Below the pieces are notes generated by a model. That model worked only from the letters and a program-made list of their open reading frames with translations, made no database searches and was not told the DNA's origin. Shown here piece by piece: positions 3,556 to 5,889 of a stretch of DNA of 5,889 bases. The DNA is from Parcubacteria group bacterium GW2011_GWB1_37_13 (GTDB lineage Bacteria > Patescibacteriota > Minisyncoccia > Phycocordibacterales > UBA9973), in NCBI GenBank assembly GCA_000990145.1, contig LBSW01000021.1:1-5889 (forward strand), given 5' to 3'. The position numbers and the translations under genes are program-made. Every line of letters starts with the position of its first letter. Position 1 is the stretch's first letter.

Positions 3556-5889
3556 ATGGCAGAGTATAATCACTTAAAAATAGAGAAAAAATGGCAAAAG
3601 GAATGGGAAAAAAGAGGAATTTATTACGCTCAAAATAAATCCAAAAAACCAAAGTATTACAGCCTAATTGAATTTCCTTATCCTTCAGGCGATGGTCTTC
3701 ATGTTGGCCATCCGAGGCCCTATATTGGTATGGATATAATTTCTAGAAAAAGAAGGCTTCAGGGCTTCAATGTGCTTTATCCTATCGGCTGGGACGCTTT
3801 TGGGTTGCCGACAGAAAACTATGCTATAAAAACGGGTCTTGATCCCAGAATTGTCACCAAAAAAAATAGCGACACTTTTCGGAGACAAATAAAATCACTT
3901 GGTATTTCCTTTGATTGGTCGCGAGAAATCAATACCACTGATTCAAAATATTACAAATGGACTCAATGGATATTTTTACAATTTCTTAAAAAAAGTTTGG
4001 CATACAAAGAGAAGATGACCATTAATTGGTGTCCGAAAGATAAAATCGGTTTGGCAAATGAGGAAGTTGTCAATGGATGTTGCGAAAGATGCGGAACTTC
4101 GGTGGAAAAAAGAGAAAAGGAACAGTGGATGCTTGCGATTACAAAATATGCCGATAGGCTTTACAAGGATTTGGATGATGTGGATTATCTTCCGCAGATA
4201 AAATTAGGGCAGAGGAATTGGATAGGGAAATCTGAAGGCGCGGAGATTAATTTCCAGATAAATTCTTCGCCGATTTCGCAAGGTGTTGTGAAGATTTTCA
4301 CCACTCGTCCAGACACAATTTTTGGAGCAACGTATCTTGTGCTTGCGCCAGAGCATAAACTTGTGCAAAAATTAAAACCACAAATTGCAAATTGGAACGA
4401 AGTTGAAAAATATATAAAAGAAATAAAAAACAAAATTGATATTGAACGCACTGGTGAAAATAAAGCAAAAACAGGAATAGAATTAAAGAAAATAAAGGCT
4501 ATCAATCCTGCAACGAAAAAAGAAATTCCAGTATGGATAGCGGACTATATTTTAGTTACATATGGCACGGGAGCAATTATGGCTGTGCCGGCGCATGATG
4601 AGCGGGATTTTGAGTTTGCAAAAAAATATAATTTACCTATTAGGCATGTTATTGCGGAAAGAGAATTGAAACAGTTATATTCTCCAAAAGAAGGTCTTCC
4701 ATTTGTTTATCGAAAAGCCGTGGAATGTCATGTTCGTAACCCAAAAAATAATAAATTCTTATATCTAGATTGGAAAGTAGCAGATTGGAATAGTCCGGTT
4801 ACGGGTGGTATAGAAGGTGATGAGAACCTTGTTGATGCCGCTCTAAGAGAAATTCACGAAGAAACCGGATATAAAAATTTAAAGTTTATACAGGAACTAG
4901 GCGGTCCCATACGGGCAGATTTTTATCATCCGCACAAGAAAGAAAATCGACGGGCTGATTTTTACGGAGTTCTTTTTGAGTTAGAAAACGAAGATAGGGA
5001 TGAAATACCAGAAGAAGAATTAACCAAACATGAATCTGTGTGGATACCAAAAGATCAAATTCAATCTTTTAGCACCATCAGTCCGATTTTTTTTAACAGA
5101 ATTTTGAATCAAAATTTATGTTTTACCGGCAATGGTGTGTTGATAAATTCCGGCAAATTTAATGATATGGATTCCGAACAAGCAAAAAAAGAAATTATAA
5201 AATTTGTCGGCGGAAAAGAAAAAACAACTTTTAAACTTCGCGATTGGATATTTTCTCGCCAACGATATTGGGGAGAGCCGATTCCGGTAGTTCATTGCGA
5301 AAAATGCGGTATTGTTCCGATTCCAGAAAAAAATCTGCCGGTAAAGCTTCCGAAAGTGAAAAATTATCAACCGACGGATAGCGGAGAATCGCCGCTTGCA
5401 AATATTTCAAAATGGGTAAATACGAAATGCCCTAAGTGCAAGGGCAAAGCAAGAAGAGAAACTGACACAATGCCGAATTGGGCGGGAAGTTCTTGGTATT
5501 ATCTTCGTTATACTGATTCTAAAAATGATAAAGAATTTGCAAGTAAGAAAAATTTGGAATATTGGCTCAGCAAAAAAGAACTTGGTACTCCGACTACCAA
5601 GTGGAAGTCGGACTACCAAGTTGGAGGCGTCGACTGGTATAATGGAGGCAATGAACACACTACTCTCCATCTTTTGTATTCACGTTTCTGGCATAAATTT
5701 TTATATGATCTAAAGTTAGTGCCAACAAGTGAGCCGTATATGAAACGTACTTCTCATGGGATGATTTTAGGCGAAGGGGGAGTGAAAATGTCCAAGTCGC
5801 TTGGAAATGTAATCAATCCAGACGATATTGTGAAAACATATGGCGCGGATACGCTTCGTATTTATGAAATGTTTATGGGACCGTTTGAT
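3556..5889 (+). CDS. leuS: Leucyl-tRNA synthetase with inserted Nudix domain, 3'-truncated by window
   Basis: Class Ia synthetase that activates leucine with ATP and charges tRNA-Leu in the cytoplasm; 778 residues are visible, up to about 30 past KMSKS. In order: HVGH (49-52, HIGH signature); cysteines 159, 175, 176 and 179 in a zinc-type module; the CP1 editing domain with FTTRPDTIFG (248-257) and HDERD (347-351), whose two aspartates match those used in E. coli editing; a Nudix insertion (about 369-515); the end of CP1 with NGVLINSGKF (526-535); RDWIFSRQRYWG (562-573); a second zinc knuckle (C581, C584, C625, C628); GGNEH (697-701); and KMSKS (744-748). The spacing before KMSKS is short, as in Bacillus LeuRS, so the leucine-specific domain is absent. 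A palindrome-derived insertion of about 20 residues precedes GGNEH. The ATG lies three bases behind the upstream stop with only a weak GAG upstream, suggesting coupling to the DUF5671-like gene. No T-box leader is present. The tRNA-binding C-terminus is outside the window. Confidence 0.96.
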   Translation, partial: MAEYNHLKIEKKWQKEWEKRGIYYAQNKSKKPKYYSLIEFPYPSGDGLHVGHPRPYIGMDIISRKRRLQGFNVLYPIGWDAFGLPTENYAIKTGLDPRIVTKKNSDTFRRQIKSLGISFDWSREINTTDSKYYKWTQWIFLQFLKKSLAYKEKMTINWCPKDKIGLANEEVVNGCCERCGTSVEKREKEQWMLAITKYADRLYKDLDDVDYLPQIKLGQRNWIGKSEGAEINFQINSSPISQGVVKIFTTRPDTIFGATYLVLAPEHKLVQKLKPQIANWNEVEKYIKEIKNKIDIERTGENKAKTGIELKKIKAINPATKKEIPVWIADYILVTYGTGAIMAVPAHDERDFEFAKKYNLPIRHVIAERELKQLYSPKEGLPFVYRKAVECHVRNPKNNKFLYLDWKVADWNSPVTGGIEGDENLVDAALREIHEETGYKNLKFIQELGGPIRADFYHPHKKENRRADFYGVLFELENEDRDEIPEEELTKHESVWIPKDQIQSFSTISPIFFNRILNQNLCFTGNGVLINSGKFNDMDSEQAKKEIIKFVGGKEKTTFKLRDWIFSRQRYWGEPIPVVHCEKCGIVPIPEKNLPVKLPKVKNYQPTDSGESPLANISKWVNTKCPKCKGKARRETDTMPNWAGSSWYYLRYTDSKNDKEFASKKNLEYWLSKKELGTPTTKWKSDYQVGGVDWYNGGNEHTTLHLLYSRFWHKFLYDLKLVPTSEPYMKRTSHGMILGEGGVKMSKSLGNVINPDDIVKTYGADTLRIYEMFMGPFD
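4660..5100 (+). other. Nudix hydrolase domain within the LeuRS editing domain
   Basis: LeuRS residues about 369-515 have no counterpart in E. coli, Thermus or Bacillus LeuRS, where a loop of roughly 10-15 residues joins the segment ending LPIKxVI to the one starting GVLINSG. Residues 417-439 fit the Nudix box GX5EX7REUXEEXGU exactly: G417, E423, R431, E432, E435, E436, G438. The last U position is tyrosine, not the usual aliphatic residue. The metal-binding glutamates are all present, so the domain should be catalytically competent. Around the box are strands typical of the fold (FVYRKAVECHV before; ADFYGVLFELE and HESVWIPKDQI after). The frame runs through it without a break. Nudix enzymes hydrolyse nucleoside diphosphates linked to another group; which substrate is used here is unknown. 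The domain boundaries are approximate. Confidence 0.9.
5579..5622. repeat. 44-base imperfect palindrome inserted in frame in leuS
   Basis: AACTTGGTA (5579-5587) pairs with TACCAAGTT (5614-5622), TCCGACT (5589-5595) with AGTCGGA (5606-5612), and CCA with TGG at the centre, with single mismatches between the blocks. It also contains a direct repeat, GACTACCAAGT at 5592-5602 and 5611-5621. It falls within codons 672-691 (5569-5628), which add about 20 residues between WL and VDWYNGGNEH. In Thermus and Bacillus LeuRS the matching WMP/WLP is followed at once by VD. The local composition is GC-richer than its AT-rich surroundings. Its length, a stretch absent from homologues, and the intact frame suggest a small mobile palindromic element tolerated in a surface loop. 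Confidence 0.8.

Follow-up and report, generated by a model that had tools for sequence, protein, structure and literature searches.

Bacterial leucyl-tRNA synthetase (LeuRS; TIGR00396, with solved structures such as 1h3n, 6yks and 4aq7) and the Nudix hydrolases of MutT, ApnA and RppH type (2azw, MutT1, Ndx1, RppH) are the closest described systems to the protein reported here. The window, i.e. the whole 5,889-nucleotide stretch of Parcubacteria group bacterium GW2011_GWB1_37_13 that was analysed (contig LBSW01000021.1), carries a leuS frame at 3556..5889 (778 codons; + strand, as for all features below) that is open at its 3′ end, where the contig ends; a complete homologue is the 972-amino acid (aa) protein P0002. 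The window LeuRS differs from other bacterial LeuRS by ∼147 residues inserted in a loop of the CP1 editing domain, whereas the inserted Nudix domain differs from the known hydrolases in being embedded in a synthetase and in forming a sequence family of its own. An IleRS with a GNAT domain (NCBIfam NF040702) is likewise a class Ia synthetase to which an enzyme domain has been added, and is already curated, although both the synthetase and the added domain are different. The sequence family of the window domain also includes standalone proteins (most of P0122–P0203), which are ∼27–50% identical to this domain and have an F-Y/F...K..N segment in common with it, but are separate genes, mostly of 150–190 aa; the organism names attached to a few of them are Patescibacteria (P0174, P0188) and Kaiserbacteria (P0196). 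On balance, we favour the explanation that the insert is an embedded, nucleotide-sanitising pyrophosphohydrolase that probably acts apart from the editing of amino acids and that recombination has probably replaced with alternative versions.

Relative to Thermus thermophilus LeuRS, the insert spans 4684..5124 (aa 377–523) and lies between the HDERD motif (4594..4608, aa 347–351) and the GVLINSG segment (5134..5154, aa 527–533) at which CP1 restarts. The first part of CP1 (4213..4671, aa 220–372) matches PF13603 over profile positions 1–146 of 185, and its TTRPDT (4300..4317, aa 249–254) and HDERD motifs, which have a role in editing, are both intact. A NUDIX domain (PF00293, E = 8.2e-12) is located at 4711..5061 (aa 386–502) with a score of 45.7 bits against a cut-off of 21.1, and the structure predicted for the insert is a Nudix fold. 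The Nudix box (4804..4872, aa 417–439) is complete with respect to GX5EX7REUXEEXGU and contains E432, E435 and E436. The preliminary description of this locus, made from the letters alone, had placed a Nudix domain, complete and with its metal ligands intact, at this point in CP1, and both the Pfam search and the structure prediction that it proposed agree with it. No intein or homing-endonuclease domain was found in the insert with Pfam at E ≤ 0.001, the matches being to synthetase and NUDIX families only, and DUF559 occurs only at a second CP1 hotspot in relatives (see below), not in the window insert.

The arrangement recurs widely. A match to the family profile at E ≤ 1e-15 is present in 67 of 379 genomes of the phylum, and in 52 of these it lies within a frame of >600 codons. 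With G403 left out, the 51 frames that were read comprise 49 LeuRS, one ValRS (L110; 834 bits, cut-off 612) and one IleRS (L108; 760 bits, cut-off 621), so that the impression given earlier that related LeuRS of this phylum carry a similar insertion is confirmed by 49 of 379 genomes. The Nudix domain is found at the window's site in 48 of the 49 LeuRS; in L104 it lies only just ahead of CP1, and in L106 it occupies both CP1 sites. The distribution is patchy, as 25 of 54 relatives whose LeuRS reads across the site have the domain (the relatives' set numbers 60, window genome included; in the other six, the site is not reached or no LeuRS was found). Two Nudix domains of >40 bits are present in 6 of 224 LeuRS in the set drawn from all sources. 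Outside the phylum, the domain is found at the same LeuRS site in two Bacilli metagenome-assembled genomes (MAGs) and in one MAG with the label Clostridium sp. Altogether, 122 proteins of synthetase length contain this Nudix, and the 120 that are listed all have synthetase and NUDIX Pfam domains; the combination is already visible in databases through precomputed Pfam. One of them is P0002, which is encoded on another contig (12,423 bases) and has a Nudix domain 98% identical to that of the window. The view that no function has been described for this architecture stands with respect to the open-licence literature searched, in which no account of a Nudix domain in LeuRS was found in the titles and abstract openings of the papers listed; subscription papers lay mostly outside the search.

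The catalytic residues of the embedded domain are conserved to a high degree. Of 343 pooled sequences, 25 fell short of a filter on score and coverage; the 318 retained include 203 LeuRS-embedded and 99 standalone domains. Glutamate occupies the positions of E432 and E436 in all 203 embedded domains, and that of E435 in 197. An earlier count by regular expression found the EE.G pattern in 191 of 198 domains and a fully canonical box in 148 of 198; six of the seven EE.G misses have glutamine for E435, and the seventh is L107. At the X-loop position, represented in the window by Tyr457 (4924..4926), 18 residues past the Nudix box, 193 of 203 embedded copies have an aromatic residue (Tyr in 140, Phe in 49, Trp in 4), and proline at +15/16 was found in 0 of 191. 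Nonsynonymous and synonymous distances (dN, dS) within the Nudix are 0.015 and 0.29 for L088/L092, and 0.005 and 0.10 for L150/L151, i.e. dN/dS ∼0.05 in the two close LeuRS pairs used, dS being near or beyond saturation in other pairs. As judged by regular expression, 169 of 184 LeuRS with a Nudix retain both editing motifs. Since the glutamates are kept and dN/dS is low, the embedded Nudix looks maintained as an enzyme, and from its sequence it is very probably catalytic. Two observations weigh against this: glutamine replaces E435 in six of the 203 embedded copies and in ten of the 99 standalone ones, and lysine is found at E436 in the multi-insert LeuRS L107 (outside the 203). The retention of the editing motifs counts against independence from editing, being also predicted by models in which the domain is related to editing.

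Sequence comparison further indicates that the history of the Nudix is largely independent of the surrounding LeuRS. Over 16,490 pairs, the identity of the Nudix and that of the LeuRS body give a Spearman coefficient of 0.22, and the median Nudix identity per bin stays at 37–45% for body identities from 40 to 90%. Body identity exceeds 90% in six pairs, of which four have Nudix domains that are 97.6–100% identical and two have Nudix domains that are 40% identical. Both of the latter involve L007 (with P0002 and with the window); L007 and P0002 are 97% identical over 473 aligned body residues with a Nudix identity of 40%, and the Nudix domains of L007 and P0099 are 65% identical, although the bodies of these two are only 55% identical. 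For 26 LeuRS, the Nudix and body trees share 1 of 23 splits, that joining the window with P0002. On likelihoods, the Nudix data score −7734 on the body topology, compared with −7630 to −8094 on ten random topologies and −6652 on their own tree, a fit to the body topology about as poor as that to random ones. The share of the own-to-random gap that is lost on the body tree amounts to 0.81 for the Nudix, against 0.17–0.44 for four equally long body segments, as computed for 25 LeuRS with four random topologies; the first approximately unbiased (AU) runs had been checked by re-optimising branch lengths and by adding ten random topologies. Split sharing was set aside as a discordance test in its own right. 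Body segments of 166 columns share only 3–7 of 22–23 splits with the full body tree, which tells against replacement; as short body segments are themselves discordant, split counts alone are weak, and the likelihood comparison carries the argument.

The window's draft genome contains a second leuS piece. It lies at the start of contig C1, and its Nudix is 40% identical to that of the window. Its first 79 bases are an exact match to the window sequence up to the Nudix, the Nudix itself has no 12-mer in common with the window Nudix, and the 3′ flank is back at 93% identity. The exact overlap of 79 bases suggests an assembler branch point, and the two Nudix alleles would reflect either two strains or two gene copies. 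Because the history is discordant, and because similar flanks surround Nudix domains of 40% identity within one assembly, the Nudix has probably been exchanged as a cassette; we consider it highly likely that exchange via recombination caused the discordance, and recombination in the leuS flanks would be the simplest reading of these sequences. Fast evolution of the Nudix in place of replacement is disfavoured by the split at high body identity and by pairs in which Nudix and body are equally conserved, although some pairs may still fit it. The equally conserved pairs were chosen by shared Nudix words and are therefore biased toward alike Nudix domains, which counts against our reading, whereas the four-to-two split at body identity >90% is predicted better by replacement than by fast evolution. 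One would not expect a domain to be exchanged within a translation enzyme that is essential and evolves slowly.

The family also exists without a synthetase. Free-standing CP1-Nudix proteins (P0204 and the 12 loci L138–L149, under the labels uncultured Clostridia or Clostridium sp., with L145 and L149 from a single genome and L148 showing the Nudix part only) are mostly ∼290 aa long and consist of a degenerate CP1 (PF13603, E = 5.7e-12 in L140) followed by the Nudix. Their order of domains is that of the window, but they have no synthetase part, and in the four sequences read (P0204, L138, L145, L149) TRPDT and HDERD are gone, whereas the Nudix box is kept. An ordinary LeuRS of 795–875 aa is present in all eight of the genomes with this protein that were tested. 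The Nudix is more conserved than the remainder in all 18 Clostridia pairs listed, which had been selected for having Nudix words in common. Eight of the Clostridia proteins group with the two Bacilli LeuRS copies in the Nudix tree (support 0.93), the ValRS copy (L110) falls inside a clade of ten LeuRS copies (support 1.0), and the IleRS copy (L108) is placed without good support; over the 318 tips, Fitch counting yields 16 changes of setting. Since the Clostridia protein has lost the editing motifs but kept the Nudix motif beside an ordinary LeuRS, and since the same family occurs at other LeuRS sites (L104, L106), in ValRS and in IleRS, the Nudix is probably independent of amino-acid editing, and the earlier suggestion that it forms part of the editing module is weakened. 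Around L140 lie two Ham1 genes together with MazG, another Nudix, CYTH, APH and LigT-type genes. Such nucleotide-cleaning neighbours are absent among those scanned at L143, L144 and L149 (cytidylate kinase; tRNA methyltransferase, GNAT, class II synthetase; YqeY; no match for three), a point against a role in nucleotide clean-up. A viral origin was considered and dropped, as a scan of viral contigs with P0204 gave 10 loci, seven of them over the Nudix cut-off at 25–37 bits, far below the family. The replacement of the Nudix between close relatives, the second CP1 insertion hotspot and the occurrence outside the phylum go beyond the preliminary description; the near-invariant catalytic glutamates, the LeuRS-independent Nudix history, the free-standing Clostridia protein, the presence of the family in ValRS, IleRS and other LeuRS sites, and the use of CP1 by further enzyme domains are new.

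In the mechanism that we propose from these sequences, the Nudix in the CP1 loop would be an active pyrophosphohydrolase on small nucleotides, separate from editing, and other versions of it would be swapped in by recombination in the flanking leuS sequence. The likely benefit would be that an essential gene provides a constant, co-translated housekeeping hydrolase in a very small genome, with the closeness of the Nudix to the ATP-using synthetic site as a possible added benefit. The locus offers a testable case of accessory-enzyme retention in such genomes. The substrate may be of nucleoside-polyphosphate type, with ApnA such as Ap4A as the best single, and still rather doubtful, guess. ApnA hydrolases have a conserved tyrosine ∼17 residues past the Nudix box (PMC5389931), to be compared with +18 for window Tyr457, and Ap4A is made by synthetases and degraded by Nudix enzymes (PMC10148737); it is on these grounds that ApnA is preferred. 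An ApnA role had been raised in the preliminary description, and the tyrosine position and fold matches that include solved Ap6A and Ap4A hydrolases speak for it. Other evidence pulls the opposite way. The RppH, NudJ and MutT types are likewise indicated by sequence and fold matches (for RppH, NCBIfam PRK00714, the best score is 29.9 bits, far below the cut-off of 116), the 49 of 203 embedded copies with Phe instead of Tyr weaken the hint from the X-loop, and 57 of 60 relatives possess a HIT-family protein. Proteins of this family are able to cleave ApnA and are another possible source of this activity; together with the 1–16 Nudix matches per relative genome (embedded copies included), their presence means that an extra Nudix is not obviously needed. 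Complementarity with other Ap4A hydrolases was tried as an explanation and abandoned, as the near-universal HIT proteins offer no contrast.

A narrower form of the favoured explanation, and one that overlaps with it, is dedicated Ap4A control, in which Ap4A formed by LeuRS as a side product is destroyed on the spot by the embedded Nudix. The same tyrosine and fold matches bear on it, yet other Nudix types appear among the fold matches at equal or higher Z, the Phe-bearing copies and HIT proteins tell against it as above, and the words leucyl and LeuRS are absent from two Ap4A reviews searched for them; we regard it as possible but doubtful. The embedded copy and the free-standing CP1-Nudix form a contrast pair for testing whether nucleotide clean-up linked to synthetases, that of Ap4A included, is a genuine function. 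Charging quality control, whereby the Nudix hydrolyses a misactivated aminoacyl-adenylate or aids CP1 in clearing mischarged tRNA, would account for its position inside the editing domain and for the 169 of 184 Nudix-bearing LeuRS that keep both editing motifs. It is at odds with the Clostridia proteins, in which the four read lack both motifs and keep the Nudix box, and with copies of the family ahead of CP1 and in other synthetases; to our knowledge, aminoacyl-adenylate is also not a usual Nudix substrate, and this explanation appears quite improbable.

Somewhat less improbable, though still unlikely, is that the Nudix is neutral or selfish cargo: CP1 loops would tolerate compact domains with close ends, which are retained while LeuRS works, and the active site would be intact since most copies were recently taken from functional genes. 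Unrelated domains at the neighbouring CP1 hotspot (DUF559 and serine hydrolase; Ham1 and HAD in L107; ASCH in P0105) and the patchy distribution in 25 of 54 relatives are what such cargo would give, whereas dN/dS of ∼0.05 within the embedded domain and the retention of catalytic residues over the whole embedded set are not. Finally, the end of the window contig inside leuS and the second leuS piece with another Nudix in the same assembly raise the prospect of an assembly chimera, which the preliminary description had named as a possible refutation. We reject it as the source of the architecture and give it almost no weight, as P0002 lies on another contig, 122 synthetase-length proteins have the domain (120 listed with both Pfam types), 49 of 379 genomes of the phylum carry the insertion, and it is found in named Bacilli MAGs.

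The second CP1 hotspot (after aa 240) holds inserts of 128–340 aa in 11 relatives. Pfam finds DUF559 in seven of these and serine hydrolase in three, with both in L051; the inserts of L058 and L063 gave no Pfam match. The L058 insert matches at 49% a segment of L107 that, taken alone, is also without a Pfam match; the L058 and L063 inserts may be Ham1-like. At the same hotspot, L107 has HAD and Ham1 domains and P0105 has an ASCH domain, and in L116 a HAD domain stands behind the Nudix. L107 itself, the LeuRS of G062, exceeds 1608 aa and has inserts at several sites, namely HAD, Ham1, Nudix and nucleotidyltransferase-like ones. The DUF559 inserts (L019, L022, L043, L048, L049, L051, L059) are mostly flanked by repeat-like peptides of PSPALPEGEGE type, which suggests repeat-borne mobile units. 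In 50 of 60 relatives (e.g. L221, L222, L223), the IleRS gene contains a histidine-phosphatase domain (His_Phos_1; insert of ∼190 aa), and three complete IleRS are without it (G017, G034, G056). The AlaRS of the same genomes gave no sign of added domains, their frames being 354–685 aa long against a model of 847 positions. It is conceivable, although we hold it as the lesser possibility, that class Ia synthetases of Patescibacteria form a chassis for plug-in hydrolases, with exchangeable CP1 cassettes (Nudix, Ham1-type, serine hydrolase, HAD, nuclease-like), a near-fixed histidine-phosphatase in IleRS, Nudix domains swapped between close strains via the leuS flanks, and a CP1-Nudix that escaped as an enzyme of its own in Clostridia. 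If so, an essential translation gene would double as a mobile expression site for nucleotide-pool sanitation.

Some relatives depart from the usual leuS layout. G028 (99% complete) has no LeuRS match, the best hit (E = 4e-16) being to a frame of 493 aa; in L035 and L062, leuS is broken into two frames near aa 112–201, by a frameshift or an assembly error; in G041, it is divided over two contigs (L040 and L041) at ∼aa 340, near the Nudix border, as in the window genome; and the LeuRS of G048 (L057, 644 aa) is without CP1 altogether. In G338 (L132), a standalone Nudix of this family precedes leuS by 2.4 kb, and a further Nudix gene stops 4 bases before the leuS start.

Apart from its Nudix-interrupted CP1, the window leuS encodes what is by sequence an ordinary bacterial LeuRS, with 808.2 bits against TIGR00396 (curated cut-off 548.4), a HIGH-type motif in the form HVGH (aa 49–52) and the KMSKS catalytic motif at 5785..5799 (aa 744–748). 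The C-terminal anticodon-binding domain (PF08264) is present in P0002, and the window frame ends before that region. Outside the Nudix insert, leuS contains a palindromic repeat element (5579..5622) that stays in frame and is predicted to be disordered, with a predicted local distance difference test score (pLDDT) of <50 at aa 674–689. Its pattern has 25 matches in the draft genome at ≤3 mismatches, compared with 0 for a reversed control, it also lies inside the lepA frame of contig C1, and the element resembles the coding-region palindromes of Rickettsia.

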